IMG/VR virus record: IMGVR_UViG_3300009167_000021
Coordinates: 1 to 33,195 of that record
Strand: one strand, 5' to 3'
Origin: a virus
DNA: 33,195 nt
In this document: positions 18,358 to 31,084 of the stretch, one piece after another
Position numbering within the stretch: the stretch's first letter is position 1
Layout of the letters: every line of letters starts with the position of its first letter
Notes under the pieces: generated by a model
What the model was told of the DNA's origin: nothing
Seen by the model: only the letters and a program-made list of their open reading frames with translations
The model's database searches: none
Position numbers and translations under genes: made by a program

Positions 18358-18559
18358 GAGGTTTGGACTTCACCTTCAACTGAACCGGTTGGCCGTCGAT
18401 GGAGAATGTGACGGTGCTAACGTCGTCTTTAACGACGCGCAATAATCTGACCCACTGCGACAGGCCGAGGTGCACCACGTTACCGTCCCGTCGAACGCGT
18501 CTGAACGGCATCTGAAGCGCCTGCCCGTTTCCCAAATTAACGAGAATTGTGGTCGTCAC
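18341..18559 (-). CDS. Small beta-rich protein, function unknown
   Basis: The 72-residue product (MTTTILVNLGNGQALQMPFR start, VTFSIDGQPVQLKVKSKP end) is basic and beta-rich, like small nucleic-acid-associated proteins, but no known fold is visible. It overlaps the exonuclease stop by four bases. Function unknown. Confidence 0.6.
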   Translation of the reverse strand: MTTTILVNLGNGQALQMPFRRVRRDGNVVHLGLSQWVRLLRVVKDDVSTVTFSIDGQPVQLKVKSKPHERSA

Positions 18560-19707
18560 AACTCCTCGATGCTCCCCGCACTTTCTTTGGGCTCAATGAA
18601 TCCATCCAGCGCCTTCCGAACCCATTCCTTCGCTGCCTTCTCTGATGACAGGTTCTTCTGCACTCGCACGAACTTCGCCAGATCCTCTTTGCCCATGGAC
18701 AGACAGGCCCAAAGACCGTCCTCCTCGAATCCGTCGCCTTTCAGGAATTCGAATGCTTCCTTGACCAGCACGATTGGATCCAGTGCCCGGCCCTTTCCGA
18801 CTTTGAGTCCAAGGGCGGCGAGTTCTTCTGGTGGCATCTTCTTCAAGCGCGAGACAACGGCGTCCAGAATCTTTTCCACGATGCTCTTGGATTGCCAGAG
18901 GCGCTTCAGGTCTGCGCCAACCATCCTGTCAACAGCCGCTTCGATGTCGGCCTTCTTCACTGCGCCATCGGCAATGACCGACGGCAGAAGCGAGTACGCG
19001 CCCGCGCTCCGGCAGTAGCTTTTGCCTGGGCAATAGTTGCAGTGCGGCCCGGGGATCAGCGGCGCGTCCTCCTGCTCCATCTGCCACAGGTGGTACATGA
19101 TATGCCGGTCTGCGTTCTCCAGGTCGTTCAGAGTGTAATCGCAATAGTCCCCTGCGCCGACCTTCAACCGGGCCTTGCAGTGCGCCACACGGAGGCGCCG
19201 AATCTCGGGACGTTCTTTCCAGAGGCAAACGCCCTGCACGCGCAGTTGTGTCGAGCGCGGCGAAGGCACGAGTTTCTTCACCCAACCGCTCTTCAGATCC
19301 ACGATCAACGCCGCATCCTGAGAACAGAAATGCCGGTCCAGTTTGGCACTGGTCAGCGGTTCGAGTGTGTCAGGGTGCCGGTACCATAGCCTTTCTTCGC
19401 GTGGCCCTTCCTCGCAATCGGGCAGGTTGTAATCCCGCATCCAGCCCTGGACGAGTTGGTCGAGGAACTTAAGACCCTGGTTGTAGACCTCCAGTTGTTC
19501 CTCGGACAACGGCAGCGTGTTACCGGTCTCGAAGGCTTGGTGGATCAGCGTGCCTTCGTCAGCGTCCGGCCCGGCCGGGGAAGACAATACCTCGGCGGGG
19601 AGGGTCGCACACAGCTTTTTCTTGCCGGGACAGGACCAGCCTGCGTTATCGCTGGCAGAGATTAGTCCCAGGCGTTCGTCGTCTTGGTCGAGGGGCTGTC
19701 GGTTCAT
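18556..19707 (-). CDS. Cas4/RecB-like PD-(D/E)XK exonuclease (DUF2800-like)
   Basis: The 383-residue protein has the PD-(D/E)XK order: GTLIHQAFE with H56, D124 in SAKLDRHF, D137 and K139 in VDLKSGW, then a Q/R helix near 154-158. One Cys near the N-terminus (C26) and three after the core (C223-x2-C226-x5-C232) match the four-Cys [4Fe-4S] layout of Cas4 and AddB nucleases. The DUF2800 group of phage exonucleases looks like this. It sits with the annealing-protein candidate, so the two may act as a Red-like recombination pair. Confidence 0.85.
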   Translation of the reverse strand: MNRQPLDQDDERLGLISASDNAGWSCPGKKKLCATLPAEVLSSPAGPDADEGTLIHQAFETGNTLPLSEEQLEVYNQGLKFLDQLVQGWMRDYNLPDCEEGPREERLWYRHPDTLEPLTSAKLDRHFCSQDAALIVDLKSGWVKKLVPSPRSTQLRVQGVCLWKERPEIRRLRVAHCKARLKVGAGDYCDYTLNDLENADRHIMYHLWQMEQEDAPLIPGPHCNYCPGKSYCRSAGAYSLLPSVIADGAVKKADIEAAVDRMVGADLKRLWQSKSIVEKILDAVVSRLKKMPPEELAALGLKVGKGRALDPIVLVKEAFEFLKGDGFEEDGLWACLSMGKEDLAKFVRVQKNLSSEKAAKEWVRKALDGFIEPKESAGSIEEL

Positions 19708-19708
19708 T

Positions 19709-19927
19709 TTAGATCTCGTATTCAGGTTCTTGGGCTACAAGGTCGTATGCCCTGTGGATGGCGCGGACGAGTTCATCAAGGGTAGCGCCTGAGTCCCGGA
19801 GGGAGACGTGCTCCCGGATCAGTCGTCGCTGCGTTTGAAAGGGCAGTCGGACGTGCAGATCGGCATGCGCCTGCAACGCATCGGTGATGCGCGCAGTGTC
19901 CGGATCCCGATAGGCCAGCAGATTCAT
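19709..19927 (-). CDS. Small helical protein between exonuclease and DHH gene
   Basis: The 72-residue product is charged and helical (DPDTARITDALQAHADLHVR, then LDELVRAIHRAYDLVAQEPE). It is separated by one base from the exonuclease start and by 18 bases from the DHH gene. Position suggests an accessory of the recombination genes. No domain recognised. Confidence 0.6.
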   Translation of the reverse strand: MNLLAYRDPDTARITDALQAHADLHVRLPFQTQRRLIREHVSLRDSGATLDELVRAIHRAYDLVAQEPEYEI

Positions 19928-19945
19928 GGTTTGGTTTCGGGCGGT

Positions 19946-20857
19946 TCACGTTGACCCAAGCAGTATGCGATTCGCTGGCGGGAGCCAGAATGGATACAAA
20001 GCCTGAAAACCGCACGCGCCCCTATGCCCGCCTCCACCGTACTTCACTGCAATGGCGGACAGGTCCAGATCGGTGCGGTGGCGGGCATGGTAGAGACTCA
20101 CAATCCATTCCTTGCCGTTGAAGAAGAAACCCATCAGCGCGTCATGCCCAGTCTCCGGCACATCCCTTGCCGCGAACGCCAGAGAGTTGCAACGTGCCGT
20201 GTTCAGGGCCAGGAACTTTAGCCCTTCAAACTCGATGATAAACGAACGCGTTGTGACAATGGAAGCGTCAACGTTCTGCGCGTAACGCTGGGCAATCTCA
20301 CCTTCTTTAACGAGGGCATCCGTGTACCCGGTGTTCTGTGACAGCAGCATATCCCATGCGATGTCCTTTTGAATGCGCAATCCATACTGGAACGTTTCTG
20401 CCCGCGGGTCGCTCCGGTCCCACACGTCGTACTCCCCGGCGAGTTGCACCGCGAGGGGTTCATCGACTTCGCATGCAAGATATTTCTCCTTGCGCGGCAA
20501 TTCCTGGTCCTGTGGAACCGAATTTATTGTGAACCACTGCCACGCCAGACGGCACGCGGCCACGCCGTCGATGCGATAGCCAACAAGGTCCGGTGGGTGC
20601 GACTTGATAGCGCTGGCGTGGTGATCGATCCACACCAGCCGCCGATGGTTCAGTAAGTAGATCAATGGCATGGGCCAGCCAAAAGGTTTGTCAGTTGGCA
20701 GGTCCATAACGTAAACGTCACCCTCGGTCGGGATTGGAATTGGAGGATCTCCATAGTTCCACCCAATGAACGTGGTGTCCTCTGGCAAAAACTTGCGGGC
20801 AATCTCACGGCAGAAAATGCCGTCGTAATCGGCGCTGTGGAAAATCACGGTTGTCAT
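19946..20857 (-). CDS. DHH/DHHA1-family phosphoesterase
   Basis: From ATG 20857 (MTTVIFHSADYDG; the frame also opens at 20890) the 303-residue protein carries the DHH motifs: HxADxDG with D10 and D12, D52 in VMDL, DHH at 78-80, D144 in EYDVWD, and the DHHA1 glycine-rich GGGGHRGACGF at 274-284. The family hydrolyses phosphodiesters in oligonucleotides or cyclic dinucleotides using two metal ions. In a phage it could recycle short oligonucleotides from the nucleases nearby, or degrade nucleotide signals used in host defence. The sequence does not say which. Confidence 0.85.
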   Translation of the reverse strand: MTTVIFHSADYDGIFCREIARKFLPEDTTFIGWNYGDPPIPIPTEGDVYVMDLPTDKPFGWPMPLIYLLNHRRLVWIDHHASAIKSHPPDLVGYRIDGVAACRLAWQWFTINSVPQDQELPRKEKYLACEVDEPLAVQLAGEYDVWDRSDPRAETFQYGLRIQKDIAWDMLLSQNTGYTDALVKEGEIAQRYAQNVDASIVTTRSFIIEFEGLKFLALNTARCNSLAFAARDVPETGHDALMGFFFNGKEWIVSLYHARHRTDLDLSAIAVKYGGGGHRGACGFQALYPFWLPPANRILLGST

Positions 20858-20875
20858 GGTGAGAGAAGGAGAATT

Positions 20876-20910
20876 GGGAAGCCCGGCCATTCCTAGGAGA
20901 CCGGGCTCCC
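20876..20910 (-). other. GC-rich hairpin upstream of DHH gene
   Basis: AGCCCGG (20880-20886) pairs with CCGGGCT (20901-20907), extended by GGG/CCC across a bulge, with a loop containing TCCTAGGA. It overlaps the alternative start at 20890, which favours the 20857 start. It resembles the stem at 27763-27787. No T-run follows on either strand. Confidence 0.5.
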
Positions 20911-20921
20911 CTTGTTCATAG

Positions 20922-20940
20922 TACGCGAAAGGGTCAGAAC
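20922..20940 (-). repeat. 19-nt repeat, copy A
   Basis: TACGCGAAAGGGTCAGAAC here (plus strand) differs in one base from 21207-21225. It lies directly after the stop of the 20941-21201 gene and just before an 8-codon open frame (MNKGSPVS, 20919-20893) that ends shortly before the DHH start. Confidence 0.65.
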
Positions 20941-21201
20941 TCAGTTGTTGGAGTCGATGTGCCTGATGCTGGCGATGCTGGTGATCATCGTTTCCTTGGG
21001 TTGTTCATTCCAAGGGTTTGTCTTCGGCTTAAGTTCAGCGAAAGTCCAGTTGGGTTTGATGTCCGCCCACGACCACGCTTCTTTCCCGTCCACATGAAGA
21101 TGGAATAGCGGTTTCTCTTTAGGCATTTCCGGGTGATCGAGTGATAATAGTAGCTTCTCGATTTCTGCCGCAATGCGCTGTTTTTCTGTTAGACTGAACA
21201 T
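20941..21201 (-). CDS. Small protein between annealing-type and DHH genes
   Basis: I start at ATG 21201 (MFSLTEKQRIAAEIEKLLLS, 86 residues); the open frame extends upstream into the previous gene. The product has an N-terminal helix, a central beta part (KPLFHLHVDGKEAWSWADIK) and a charged end. The start has no Shine-Dalgarno and is preceded five bases upstream by the repeated 19-nt element. No domain recognised. Confidence 0.65.
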   Translation of the reverse strand: MFSLTEKQRIAAEIEKLLLSLDHPEMPKEKPLFHLHVDGKEAWSWADIKPNWTFAELKPKTNPWNEQPKETMITSIASIRHIDSNN

Positions 21202-21206
21202 AAAGA

Positions 21207-21225
21207 TACGCGAAAGGGTTAGAAC
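21207..21225 (-). repeat. 19-nt repeat, copy B
   Basis: TACGCGAAAGGGTTAGAAC on the plus strand. It covers the stop codon of the 21219-22505 gene and ends five bases before the ATG at 21201. Confidence 0.65.
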
Positions 21226-22505
21226 GCTGGTTGTTCCTTGATTTTCGGCAGGATATTCGGCCACGTCTTCAGCATCTGGTTGTACTTCGCCGTGCTTAGT
21301 TCAGTCAGCTTCCGCTGTTCCGGCTTGGCCAGCTTCACTTCATGCGCCCAGTTCATGACCTGGGGTTCGCTTACGCCGTTCTTGTGCATCATCAAGCGGA
21401 CGTTTTGCAGCTCATCACTCTCGTTCGAGTTCGGCACGAATGGCGCAGCCGGTTCTGACTGTGTGGCAGGTTCAGCCGGTGCCGGTGTCGGGACTTGCAT
21501 TGTTATTGTTGTCGTAGTTGTGGTCTGCGTTTGCGATGCTGGCGCAAGACCCGCGGCGGCTTCAGCTTCCTCGTCGGAGGGTTCGACCTTCTCTTTAGCG
21601 CTATTGTCCTGTGGCGCATTGGTGGATGGCTGCTGTGCTGGTGGTGTTGTGGATGTCACGACAGCGGGCGCCGTTTTTTTCGTCTCCTGAGTCGGCGGCT
21701 TCGGTTGTCCGGGAATCTCCGGGGCTTTGGTTGCGGGCCTCACGGGCGCAAAAATCTCCTCGATGGAACACCCTTCCTGCCCGTCCTTGATGGCCGTAAA
21801 CAGGCCAAAAAGAACCTCAAGATCCGAGAGTTCAATCTCTTCCACTGTTTTCTTCTCCACCTTAGCGAGTAGTTGTTCGGTGGTGACCCCGATCTTGCTG
21901 AACTTTTCGATGGCCCGGGCACGCCGTTGCACAAGAGATTTGGCCGTTCCGATGGCCACAGCTTTGGCCTGTTCGAACACAGGCTTGATTAGGGCCAGCG
22001 GGACGATCTTGTAAATAGCGTCGCGAAAGGCGATTGCACTGCAAGCGTTGGTAGCAAGATTGATGTCGTCCTCGTCGATGGCGAGTTTGCTCTTCTTTTT
22101 TGTGATACGGCGCCGTTTCTCCATGCTGACCGTGATGTTGTTCTCAAGGTCGGTAGCGATTGCCTGGACAACCACGTGCGGGTTCTCACCGTTGACCACG
22201 GATTGAATGATACGCGAACCTGCCCGGAGATTGCCGTAGCACGATGCCGCAATCTCAGCCAGCCGGACGCTTGGTCCCTGGATTAACTTCCCGCCTCTGG
22301 GCAGAGAGTAGAAGCAGGACTCTGCGGTCTCTTCATCCAAAGTGGCGAAGCTCATCATCTTGGCCTTTACTCGGGCCAGTTCGCGGGGGTATTTGCGTGC
22401 GGTAGCGATGGAAATGTCTACCTCTGCGCGGGTGACTGCCTCAACCGCTGATGGGGCGAGGACTTCGAGGGGCGCCTCACTACTGCCCATGCTTTGGTCG
22501 TTCAT
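21219..22505 (-). CDS. Phage recombination protein candidate (annealing-type family)
   Basis: The 428-residue protein has a conserved N-terminal half, including CFYSLPRGGKLIQGPSVRLA at about residues 64-83 and KRRRITKKKSKL near 130-141. From memory this family is common in phages beside DUF2800-type exonucleases and is suspected to include single-strand annealing or replication proteins. Residues 255-350 are a Pro/Thr-rich disordered linker, followed by a small helical C-terminal domain (NVRLMMHKNGVSEPQVMNWA). Its place in the same operon as the exonuclease supports a Red-like partner. The exact activity is inferred. Confidence 0.65.
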   Translation of the reverse strand: MNDQSMGSSEAPLEVLAPSAVEAVTRAEVDISIATARKYPRELARVKAKMMSFATLDEETAESCFYSLPRGGKLIQGPSVRLAEIAASCYGNLRAGSRIIQSVVNGENPHVVVQAIATDLENNITVSMEKRRRITKKKSKLAIDEDDINLATNACSAIAFRDAIYKIVPLALIKPVFEQAKAVAIGTAKSLVQRRARAIEKFSKIGVTTEQLLAKVEKKTVEEIELSDLEVLFGLFTAIKDGQEGCSIEEIFAPVRPATKAPEIPGQPKPPTQETKKTAPAVVTSTTPPAQQPSTNAPQDNSAKEKVEPSDEEAEAAAGLAPASQTQTTTTTTITMQVPTPAPAEPATQSEPAAPFVPNSNESDELQNVRLMMHKNGVSEPQVMNWAHEVKLAKPEQRKLTELSTAKYNQMLKTWPNILPKIKEQPAF

Positions 22506-27817: not shown

Positions 27818-28858
27818 CTATGCTGCAACAGCCTCGCCCGCTGGGGCGGCTTCGGTGTCTTCCGACAAATCGAACTTGCGGGACTTGCGGTCTACGATCA
27901 TACCGTCAAGGGCGGTCTGAACTTCGCGGAACTTGTTCGCGATCTGGTCTCTCACGTTCAGGTTCTTGCGCAGCTTTTCCGGGTCGGTGTCCTTGACGAT
28001 CTTTTGCGCCTTCTCTACCAGCGCCGCAAGTTCGGCATCGCCCAGGTTCTTGTCCTTGAACGTCGCGATAAAGTCTTCCACGTTCGCCACAAGCGTGTCC
28101 TTGAAGATCTTGGGCTTGGCGCCCGCCTCCACGGTCAAGCGCTCCACAAGATGATCAACCAACTCGGCGAAGCTCACCCGCAACGCTTCCCGCATCTGAT
28201 CGGCCGCGTTCACTAGCTTGCGTTCGAACTCCGCGACCTTCTCAGCCCGCAGCTCCGCGGGAAGATCCTCAGGCACGCCGATTGCCAAGTATTCCCAGTC
28301 GAGGGAGAACTTGCTGGCCGCTTCACTTGCGCCAGGGTAGTTACTCTCCACGTACAACGGCCCAAGTCCGCCCTTCTTGACGGGGGTGTCCTTCGCCCGC
28401 CGCTTGGCGTTCTGCCAGTCCGCCACGATTGCCGGGCGGTACTTGGTTTCGAGCTGAACCAGGGCGTCTTTCAGAAGCTCTTCAACTTCCGTGACAATGT
28501 CCTTCCGGCATCGGAACAGCCCTTCCTGAATGAAGCTTGGCTGCATTCGCCCCCGATACTTCCCACACAGTTTGTCTTTGATTTCGTTCAAGAAATCATT
28601 GACGTAATCTATCGGTTGACTGTCCATGAGTCTGACTGTGTGCTTGCACTTGTCAACGGCGCCCGCCGTCCGGACGCTGGAAACTGGTTGCCCGGGATCC
28701 GTGCTCTCATCCTCCCCTTCGGGCAGGTTCAAGAGTCGGATGTATTCCCTCACTGCGTTCCCGTTGGTAGCCTTGGCTGAGTTACCCCAGCGGTGGATTG
28801 AAAGCCGGAATAGGTAGCTATTCCGGAGGTCGTCTATGTTTACGAGTGTTGTCTGCAT
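27818..28858 (-). CDS. Large helical DUF3150-like protein beside the AAA+ module
   Basis: The 346-residue protein is mostly helical and highly charged. The start (SYLFRLSIHRWGNSAKATNG) and the later KYRPAIVADWQNAKRRAKD resemble the DUF3150 group, whose genes often sit beside MoxR-like AAA+ ATPases; this is a moderate-confidence match from memory. The last 20 residues carry RKFDLSEDTEAAP, related to two other operon proteins. The adjacent genes encode the AAA+ protein and its probable partners, so this may be a substrate, adaptor or structural partner. Confidence 0.6.
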   Translation of the reverse strand: MQTTLVNIDDLRNSYLFRLSIHRWGNSAKATNGNAVREYIRLLNLPEGEDESTDPGQPVSSVRTAGAVDKCKHTVRLMDSQPIDYVNDFLNEIKDKLCGKYRGRMQPSFIQEGLFRCRKDIVTEVEELLKDALVQLETKYRPAIVADWQNAKRRAKDTPVKKGGLGPLYVESNYPGASEAASKFSLDWEYLAIGVPEDLPAELRAEKVAEFERKLVNAADQMREALRVSFAELVDHLVERLTVEAGAKPKIFKDTLVANVEDFIATFKDKNLGDAELAALVEKAQKIVKDTDPEKLRKNLNVRDQIANKFREVQTALDGMIVDRKSRKFDLSEDTEAAPAGEAVAA

Positions 28859-28974: not shown

Positions 28975-29223
28975 CTAGTGTGTGTGACCGTCCGACGCGT
29001 GCGCCTCTAGCGCCGCGTGTATGTGTGCATGCGTGCCCTTAAGCTTGATCTCAGTGGTCCCGCCCGCCAGCCGTGACAGTTCCCGCAAGAACGCTTCAGC
29101 GTTGGCGTGATTCGGTCCGGATATGATCCCCGTATCGGTCCGGATTCTGCCATCTTCCAATACTTGGATCCGGAGAATATCGCCCCCAGGCTTGCGGACT
29201 TCAAAACAGATAGGCGCGCTCAT
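28975..29223 (-). CDS. DUF2997-like small protein with His-rich tail
   Basis: From ATG 29223, preceded by GAGGAGG, the product is 82 residues. Residues 5-60 follow the DUF2997 pattern: I-x-F-E-V near the start, a G-x-ILRIQVLEDGRIRTDTG strand pair, ISGPN and a helix (AEAFLRELSRLAG). The last 20 residues contain several His (HAHIHAALEAHASDGHTH), a possible metal-binding tail. DUF2997 genes are often seen beside DUF1257 and AAA+ genes, as here. It overlaps the DUF1257-like gene by four bases. Confidence 0.65.
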   Translation of the reverse strand: MSAPICFEVRKPGGDILRIQVLEDGRIRTDTGIISGPNHANAEAFLRELSRLAGGTTEIKLKGTHAHIHAALEAHASDGHTH

Positions 29224-29546
29224 GACACCCTCCTCACTGCCCAAGCGGGCTGGTCAACCTGTTTTGTTACCCACCCAAACCGCGCAAAGCGCCTCGCGGT
29301 ATCTCTCACTACAGCGGCGCCATAAGCCTGTTTGATCTCGTTTACGTCGCGACTGCTCGCGAACTGGCTTTGACCGGTGGCAACGTCAATCCACTCTCCC
29401 CGGCCAAAATGAATTCGCCCCTTGTCCACACTGCGGATAAAGGCGCCCAGGTGCAGATCGTTCAGCGCCGCCAGCATCAAATCCGGGTTAATCCGCCCGA
29501 CGCTGGAAAGGTCTACGCTAATCGTTCTAATGCTATCGCATGGCAT
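29220..29546 (-). CDS. Ycf35/DUF1257-like protein
   Basis: The 108-residue protein starts MPCDSIRTISVDLSS and includes LMLAALNDLHLGAF, a beta part (GRIHFGRGEWIDV) and a C-terminal EIKQAYGAAVVRDTARRFAR followed by FGWVTKQ and a terminal AVRRVS. This is the DUF1257 (Ycf35) layout: N-terminal L-x-x-AL-x-x-L, then an I-x-x-x-Y helix followed by a GF/GW strand. The neighbours are a Ycf46-like AAA+ protein and a DUF2997-like protein, the set found together in cyanobacteria and other bacteria. Confidence 0.65.
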   Translation of the reverse strand: MPCDSIRTISVDLSSVGRINPDLMLAALNDLHLGAFIRSVDKGRIHFGRGEWIDVATGQSQFASSRDVNEIKQAYGAAVVRDTARRFARFGWVTKQVDQPAWAVRRVS

Positions 29547-29548
29547 AG

Positions 29549-31084
29549 TTAATCCTGGGTTGTGATTTTCCGGCCTACTGGCGCCGCCCCGACGGCCTCA
29601 CCGGCACTGTAGCGGTATTTCCCGGGCAGACTGGCACTGAGGAACCGATTATGCGCGAGCTTGCGCAGTGCCTCAACGGCCTCCGGGGCAGACTGGCACA
29701 CCGGGACAACATTGTCGGCGGCATCGACCAGGGACAGCCCGGCCCGAAACGCCACGTCGCAGCATGCCCTGATTTCCGCCCCCGTCCATCCGTTGCACTC
29801 AGGCAAGGCTTGCTGCGGGTCCAACCTGAACCGCTTGATCCATATAGGCCAGATCGTAGCCCTTTCCTCCGCCGTCGGAAGGTCAAAGAAGAAGGTCCCC
29901 ATTGTATAACGGCGCCTCAACTCCGGCGGGAGACTGGTAATCTTGTTGCACGTCGCAAGGATCATGCCCTGGCGGTTGCTCACGCTCATGTAAATATCCA
30001 TCGCTGCCCGGATTCGGGCTTCGGAGTCGCCAACTATGCCCGCTTTCATGGCTCCGCAATCGAACGCTACGACCGGCACGTTTGCCAGATTGCCCGCTGC
30101 CTTCGCGACTTGGCTTTTCCCCGTGCCAGCATGGCCGACAAGTAGGATCCCCGGGATGTCGTAATCTTGCATGACTTTCAGGAACACTTGCAACTGGTCT
30201 TTGCTGACTCCGGAGTCCCCGCCCCCGTCGGTGGCGCCCGCGAGTCCCTTTTCAATCTCGTCGACAAACCCCAGCGCGCCCACCTTGGTATTGCCAGACG
30301 TGAGAATGCACGTGAGATAACGCTTCAGGCGGTCTAGCCCGCCAATATCCGCGAACGTTTCACCCCCGCGCCAGACGCTCAAACCTGGGGTTTGCTCAAT
30401 CATCTTGACCTTGCGCGCCCACAGGCTATCAGGGTCGAGCCCTGCCCGCGTCACGGAAACCGCGGTAACCTGTTCGACCGCGAACGCTGACAGCCCTGTT
30501 AGCACATCCGCCGTCTTGTCCAACTCCGCCGGTGGCGCAATCTCAGCATCCTTGCATACGCTCTGCACGATCTCTGAGATTTCCGCTGAGTCTGGCAACG
30601 CCTCACTACTGACCATTACGTCTTGCTTCAGCTCCGGCGGCAGTGTCAACGCTGGCCCGAGGAGAACCAGCAAGGCATGGCGCCCTTTCAAGGCGTCGCG
30701 GCAATTCCAGACGGCCTGCATCACGGTCGTCTCAGATATGAATCGTTGCGCATTGTGCATGAAGCAGACGGTCTCCGCCGGAGCTTTCGCCGCCAGGGCG
30801 GAAAGCGCTTCGGTCGGATTAGTCAGGGGGATCCCGTCGTTCCCGCCAACCTCGCGGACGGCATCGCCCGAAACGTCATTGTAGGCCCGGCCGCTTGCCG
30901 GATCCGTGACCTCAGAAAATGCTCGAACAACATCCCATTGAATCAACGGGACAGATTCGAGCTTGCCATTCATGGCCCGAACCGCATTCAAGATCGTGCG
31001 GGCGGGATCCGCGGTCTCCAGTCCCGCAATGGGCACGCCAGCCCGCCGCCAGGGCTTGATCGGATGACTTTGAACGTTACGCAT
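29549..31084 (-). CDS. Ycf46-like AAA+ ATPase with permuted Walker motifs
   Basis: The 511-residue protein has an N-terminal part (about 15-230) like the degenerate ATPase domain of Ycf46 (ALLVLLGPALTLPPELKQDV). The AAA+ core follows, but in an unusual order. Walker B (LGFVDEIEK, 271-279) and its following helix (GVSKDQLQVFLKVMQ) come first; then Walker A (GHAGTGKS, 317-324), VGDSEARIR (351-359), sensor 1 ATCN (377-380), PPELRRRY with the arginine-finger region (386-393) and the sensor-2 helix TGAEIRA (434-440). The frame is continuous, and the segment between VGDSE and sensor 1 is too short to hold another Walker B. The product probably remodels or loads partners encoded by the neighbouring genes. 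Confidence 0.85.
   Translation of the reverse strand: MRNVQSHPIKPWRRAGVPIAGLETADPARTILNAVRAMNGKLESVPLIQWDVVRAFSEVTDPASGRAYNDVSGDAVREVGGNDGIPLTNPTEALSALAAKAPAETVCFMHNAQRFISETTVMQAVWNCRDALKGRHALLVLLGPALTLPPELKQDVMVSSEALPDSAEISEIVQSVCKDAEIAPPAELDKTADVLTGLSAFAVEQVTAVSVTRAGLDPDSLWARKVKMIEQTPGLSVWRGGETFADIGGLDRLKRYLTCILTSGNTKVGALGFVDEIEKGLAGATDGGGDSGVSKDQLQVFLKVMQDYDIPGILLVGHAGTGKSQVAKAAGNLANVPVVAFDCGAMKAGIVGDSEARIRAAMDIYMSVSNRQGMILATCNKITSLPPELRRRYTMGTFFFDLPTAEERATIWPIWIKRFRLDPQQALPECNGWTGAEIRACCDVAFRAGLSLVDAADNVVPVCQSAPEAVEALRKLAHNRFLSASLPGKYRYSAGEAVGAAPVGRKITTQD

Follow-up and report, generated by a model that had tools for sequence, protein, structure and literature searches.

In AAA+ ATPases, the succession of motifs from Walker A through Walker B to sensor 1 is taken to be invariable, and the models by which these proteins are detected have it built in. 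A viral record (IMG/VR IMGVR_UViG_3300009167_000021, positions 1 to 33,195; this whole stretch of 33,195 nucleotides is referred to here as the window) carries a gene for a Ycf46-like protein in which Walker B lies ahead of Walker A. This raises the question of whether such an order is genuine or results from chance or misassembly and, if it is genuine, what has been rearranged and whether the protein might still fold and work as an ATPase. An earlier note, made from the sequence alone, had described Walker B (residues 271-279) followed by Walker A (317-324), ATCN and an arginine region; this order held, positions included.

Motif order in the window protein

The gene is an open reading frame for 511 amino acids that begins with ATG and contains no internal stop. 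Its features are as follows.

29549..31084, minus strand: AAA+ ATPase gene with a rearranged core, 511 aa (open reading frame, profile mapping, model)
30389..31084, minus strand: N-terminal half, residues 1-232 (profile match, structural match)
30155..30277, minus strand: displaced block β3-α3 with Walker B, residues 270-310 (profile positions 335-371; model)
30248..30274, minus strand: Walker B LGFVDEIEK, residues 271-279 (motif; DE invariant in alignment A2)
29975..30154, minus strand: block β1-P-loop-α1-β2-pore loop-α2, residues 311-370, after Walker B (profile positions 273-329)
30113..30136, minus strand: Walker A GHAGTGKS, residues 317-324 (G317, G320 and K323 invariant in A2)
29945..29956, minus strand: sensor 1 ATCN, residues 377-380, end of β4 (T378 and N380 invariant)
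29909..29914, minus strand: arginine pair R391-R392, presumed arginine fingers (invariant in A2)

The motifs run along the chain as Walker B, Walker A, sensor 1 and arginine pair, the core of Walker B (VDEIEK) occupying residues 274-279 and the arginine pair lying within LRRRY (389-393), C-terminal to sensor 1. Measured against the canonical AAA+ core, the protein satisfies the expectations for Walker A (GxxxxGK[ST]; GHAGTGKS), for Walker B (hhhhDE; LGFVDEIEK, with DE invariant) and for a sensor 1 and arginine finger placed C-terminal to Walker B (ATCN; R391 and R392), and it fails the expected order Walker A-β2-Walker B-sensor 1. The earlier note had seen no room for a second Walker B, and indeed none was found between α2 and sensor 1, where residues 366-376 (MSVSNRQGMIL) include no acidic residue. 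A DD pair present between α2 and sensor 1 in four relatives was considered as a second Walker B and rejected; it appears to lie in a loop before β4 and not at a strand end. The N-terminal half (residues 1-232) is collinear with ordinary relatives and contains neither a Walker A nor a Walker B motif.

Profile mapping of the exchanged blocks

Relatives were drawn from phage records, IMG/VR and contigs of GTDB genomes, and a profile of the ordinary order was built from 24 of them (alignment A3). Complete ordinary relatives each match this profile in one continuous stretch; the window protein matches it in four separate pieces, each of which is significant.

Piece 1 (N-terminal): residues 12-258, profile positions 19-253, i-E 2e-31
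Piece 2 (Walker-B block): residues 273-308, profile positions 335-371, i-E 9e-12
Piece 3 (Walker-A block): residues 312-368, profile positions 273-329, i-E 7e-18
Piece 4 (C-terminal): residues 366-492, profile positions 368-508, i-E 2e-28

Because a profile of ordinary relatives maps to the window protein in four significant, re-ordered pieces, the position of Walker B before Walker A is not a matter of chance but a genuine and conserved order. Two adjacent blocks have been swapped, namely β1-α1-β2-α2, which bears Walker A and the pore loop, and β3-α3, which bears Walker B. All four blocks share common descent with those of ordinary relatives. Thus, the protein meets the requirement of a Ycf46-like family member for a homologous N-terminal half and C-terminal lid (2e-31 and 2e-28), and does not meet that for the ordinary motif order, which is found in all complete relatives outside its clade. 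Approximately 19 profile positions of the linker before β1 remain unmatched in the rearranged form.

Among 248 loci, 128 were rearranged, 116 ordinary and four unclassified. Three of these four are fragments that look ordinary; the other, L038, has a degenerate Walker B piece that did not reach the threshold, yet its sequence reads in the rearranged order. After removal of duplicates, all 101 distinct rearranged proteins showed the order N-terminal half, Walker-B block, Walker-A block, C-terminal part. Counted from Walker A, the position of Walker B is bimodal, at either -41 to -47 or +54 to +56. It should be noted that the search patterns for candidates included DEIEK, and motif counts are therefore biased towards an intact Walker B. 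General family models do not capture the rearranged form: Pfam AAA (PF00004) matches the window protein over positions 1-51 only, compared with 1-130 of 131 in ordinary relatives, PHROGs recognise rearranged proteins only through fragments of other families, and among the matching Pfam, NCBIfam and PHROGs families no best-matching stretch begins ahead of the P-loop and none spans both exchanged blocks.

It could be argued that DEIEK arose by chance or is unrelated to Walker B, the true catalytic acid being somewhere else, and that the protein is an AAA homologue without activity. The absence of Walker motifs from the N-terminal half of the family speaks for this reading. However, the entire block 273-308, well beyond DEIEK itself, fits the β3-α3 part of the profile at 9e-12, DE is invariant in an alignment of 27 sequences, and no other acidic strand end occurs between α2 and sensor 1, which leaves this explanation very improbable.

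Circular permutation, the term that the earlier note had applied to the core, was also rejected. The N-terminal half and the C-terminal lid keep their places, and the order Walker B-Walker A-sensor 1-arginine is not a cyclic shift of Walker A-Walker B-sensor 1-arginine. The rearrangement is instead an exchange of two inner β-α blocks, with the ends of the domain unmoved.

Distribution of the rearranged form

The possibility that a misjoined contig, or an error in binning, set Walker B ahead of Walker A deserves consideration, given that the window is a viral contig of metagenomic origin. Against this, 101 distinct proteins from many datasets share the same order, including one from an isolate genome, that of Tunturiibacter phage Tunturi_3 (PP885686), whose homologue is 36-38% identical and is annotated only as an ATPase (no ATPase is mentioned in the main text of the paper on the Tunturi viruses). 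In addition, the reading frame is intact, and dN/dS between the closest pairs of rearranged proteins is 0.05-0.13; the rearranged protein is therefore under purifying selection. An assembly artefact was thus rejected, and an artefact of either kind is all but ruled out. The view that the intact frame reflects a real rearrangement held, and reads across 30100-30280, which had been proposed as a check of the junctions, are unnecessary for excluding misassembly given these relatives. The arrangement had been described for one phage alone; this needs correction, since the whole clade has it.

Identical copies of the window protein occur on two further contigs. The rearranged relatives come from many metagenomes, from the one isolated phage and from contigs in bacterial bins, and are mostly phage-borne. 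Fifteen contigs from bacterial bins (L089-L103) carry the rearranged form, the bins being mostly Bryobacteraceae and other Acidobacteria, with Nitrospirales, Armatimonadetes and Delta-/Myxobacteria. Two of these contigs were inspected (L090 and L102, from bins of Nitrospirales and Acidobacteria), and there the rearranged ATPase adjoins phage-like replication and nucleotide genes, among them ribonucleotide reductase, a sliding clamp, primase and Gp157. Because phage-like genes adjoin the ATPase, these two contigs might be misbinned phage sequence or integrated prophages. A search of plasmids returned 649 matching records, none of which covered 80% of the window protein.

Common origin and P-loop variation

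When the collinear parts (341 columns) were used for a tree, the 101 rearranged proteins fell into one clade (support 0.82), next to a large ordinary clade (support 0.996, parent 1.0) whose members come from phages and planctomycete contigs. A tree of the exchanged blocks only (99 columns) gives the same picture, with 100 of 100 rearranged proteins in one clade (support 0.78). The support for the rearranged clade is moderate, but in both trees it stands beside the same ordinary clade. Since the two trees agree, all blocks share one history, which indicates an internal rearrangement that most simply happened once. It is likely, then, that the rearrangement was a single ancestral event within the Ycf46-like AAA lineage. 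The swap may have proceeded by tandem duplication of the β1-α3 stretch, after which the leading copy of the Walker-A block and the trailing copy of the Walker-B block would have been lost; none of the 101 rearranged proteins has either block in duplicate, as an intermediate would.

The P-loop varies within the clade. The form GxxGxAK[ST] occurs in 52 of the 101 rearranged proteins (e.g., those of L012, L014, L020 and L024) and GxxGxSKS in seven more, giving 59 with an altered P-loop, and neither AKS/AKT nor SKS was seen in approximately 106 ordinary relatives with a readable motif. The first of these forms is MCM-like, as MCM helicases use AKS. With half of the clade altered in this way, catalysis may differ there, the precedent of the MCM helicases notwithstanding. 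A separate substitution is found on the ordinary side, where 46 relatives, including those at phage loci L039, L041 and L057, have serine in place of the first P-loop glycine (SxxGxGKS).

Predicted structure and possible refolding

AlphaFold2 was run on the window protein with 26 rearranged sequences and gave a model with pLDDT 88.6 and pTM 0.79. Its strands lie at residues 270-274 (Walker B, pLDDT about 92), 312-317 (Walker A), 338-341, 373-379 (sensor 1) and 397-400, the displaced block being modelled as strand 270-274 and helix 292-307, and the elements follow one another along the chain as β3-α3-β1-α1-β2-α2-β4. A model of an ordinary relative (L040; pLDDT 85.6, pTM 0.82) shows the usual strand order, with strands at 249-254, 275-278, 308-312, 349-355 and 373-377. 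All elements of the α/β core are present at high confidence in the window model, although their spatial strand order was not measured. The rearranged topology is therefore structurally plausible as a prediction, with strands in the rearranged order along the chain and the spatial place of β3 unmeasured. A normal fold with another acidic Walker B between residues 351 and 377, which the earlier note had named as a refutation, is not what the prediction shows.

When aligned with p97 D2 (3cf0), the ordinary model matched over 248 residues (Z 24.6, rmsd 2.6) and the window model over 204 (Z 16.7, rmsd 2.6); the corresponding numbers of aligned residues were 231 and 201 for 6g2v and 237 and 203 for 4d82. 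The shortfall could correspond to roughly one 40-residue block lying out of sequence, on the assumption that the aligner keeps chain order. Taken as a whole, the model of the window protein best matches the tandem AAA chains of p97/Cdc48 (Z 19.3, 397 residues, rmsd 5.0), and for this reason the N-terminal half looks like an AAA domain without Walker motifs, resembling a degenerate first domain of this kind. In a viral structure library, the best matches were Ycf46-named proteins (TM 0.60-0.68).

The positions of the three new junctions, each just ahead of a β-strand, suggest how the core may still fold. At the first, β3 has taken the usual place of β1 behind the helix and "RP(K/R)" linker; at the second and third, α3 runs into β1 and α2 into β4. 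The strand order of the AAA+ sheet is 5-1-4-3-2. The junction loops would lie at the sheet edge away from the active site. The catalytic loops, being on the other edge, would remain uncut, and each β-α unit could return to its original position in the sheet through right-handed crossovers. As the crossover directions would all be as before, no helix would need to change to the other face of the sheet, and the ATP site would be rebuilt. This scheme is inferred from the known strand order and does not rest on measurement.

Alternatively, β3-α3 might be displaced or swapped into a neighbouring subunit, giving a protein that binds ATP but works differently, for instance as a nucleotide-gated scaffold instead of a translocase. 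In favour of this reading are the confinement of the altered P-loop (59/101) to the rearranged clade and the structural alignment, which is about 40 residues shorter than that of the ordinary relative. However, the Walker B strand is modelled with high confidence in the monomer, and the DE pair, the P-loop lysine, the sensor 1 asparagine and the arginine pair are all conserved; such a displacement is thus considered unlikely.

Putative function

The rearranged clade retains the catalytic residues listed above and, in addition, an (I/L)VG pore loop. Because these are conserved, an active ring ATPase that remodels proteins is the likeliest reading, although it is an inference, as there are no biochemical data on hydrolysis, ring formation or substrate. 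Such a ring would combine an inactive first AAA domain with an active second one, and the (I/L)VG pore loop would pull on a protein. The picture as a whole, of a phage-borne Ycf46-like lineage in which one ancestral swap of two core blocks gave a refolded, active ring ATPase, is regarded as very likely; within it, the motif order, its conservation, purifying selection and the retained catalytic residues are established.

A role in defence was considered and rejected, the similarity to IetA of the IetAS anti-phage system (NCBIfam IteA) being weak. The AAA core resembles that of IetA (E 6.7e-9 in PADLOC, 1.6e-6 in NCBIfam), but the curated cut-off is not met (27.5 vs. 510 bits).

Relation to known systems

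The closest known proteins are the Ycf46-like classical AAA ATPases (SpoVK/Ycf46/Vps4 group), for example those of Pseudomonas phage SM1 (A0A0U3CC34), Streptococcus satellite phage Javan368 and mycobacteriophages. They share with the window protein the N-terminal half, the motifs, the lid and the C-terminus, all four blocks being homologous, whereas the Walker-B block stands ahead of the Walker-A block only in the rearranged form. p97/Cdc48/VCP has a similar tandem AAA layout and is the best structural match over both halves; however, the window protein differs in core order, lacks Walker motifs in its N-terminal AAA half and is only 17% identical. A SpoVK/Ycf46/Vps4-related, antitoxin-like ATPase has been described for SGI1 (PMC10954446), but no mechanism that transfers to the phage ATPase was found.

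Re-ordered motifs are known from the circularly permuted GTPases, YlqF/YawG (YRG) with G4-G5-G1-G2-G3 and cpRAS with G3-G4-G5-G1-G2 (PMC2430557). Both are P-loop NTPases, and in cpRAS a Walker-B-like G3 likewise stands ahead of G1. Nonetheless, YRG and cpRAS represent genuine circular permutation of an entire GTPase domain, whereas the phage ATPase has undergone an internal exchange with unchanged domain ends. No permuted AAA+ protein was found in a search of 5.39 million open-access papers, which yielded only these GTPases and unrelated uses of the term (subscription papers and bioRxiv were mostly outside its scope). This supports the earlier statement that no description of Walker B before Walker A was known, although a previous report of a rearranged AAA+ order cannot be excluded. 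A bolder reading, which seems likely, is that this is the first known AAA+ lineage, and perhaps the first ASCE-type P-loop NTPase, with a non-canonical core order, arising from one ancestral exchange that was kept functional and spread through many phages. If the enzyme works, the AAA+ core would be modular enough to survive an internal block exchange, and the clade would offer a natural experiment on the loops that couple ATP hydrolysis to pore-loop motion. It would also serve as a warning that phage genomes may hide other rearranged NTPases.

Gene neighbourhood

Three genes near the ATPase belong to families that recur beside its relatives.

29220..29546, minus strand: next gene downstream, 108 aa, DUF1257 (Ycf35)-like family (family profile)
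28975..29244, minus strand: small gene of up to 89 aa, perhaps DUF2997-like (family profile)
27818..28858, minus strand: uncharacterised 346-aa partner gene (near both ATPase forms)

The family of the 108-aa gene was found in 107 rearranged and 93 ordinary loci; some members pass the Pfam cut-off for DUF1257, whereas the window copy has no Pfam match. The small gene is more restricted (46 rearranged and three ordinary loci), and DUF2997 was detected in its relatives only at E 0.015-0.07, under the cut-off. The 346-aa gene, for which no Pfam or PHROG family was found, has relatives in 116 rearranged and 72 ordinary loci. Outside these three families, no gene of the wider neighbourhoods is shared by more than 11 loci. 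The DUF1257-like and ~340-aa neighbours are common to both forms, and the presence of the same partners beside rearranged and ordinary ATPases suggests the same job. Both proteins may act with the ATPase as substrate or adaptors.

Some further features of these loci can be mentioned. The ~340-aa family is apparently helical and is conserved near Ycf46-like ATPases in 190 loci. Some bacterial contigs (L143, L144 and L163) have two ordinary Ycf46-like genes only a few kilobases apart. In the window itself, positions 18556-22505 contain, on the same strand as the ATPase, exonuclease-like (phrog_69), DHH phosphoesterase-like (phrog_4771) and phrog_3657 genes.
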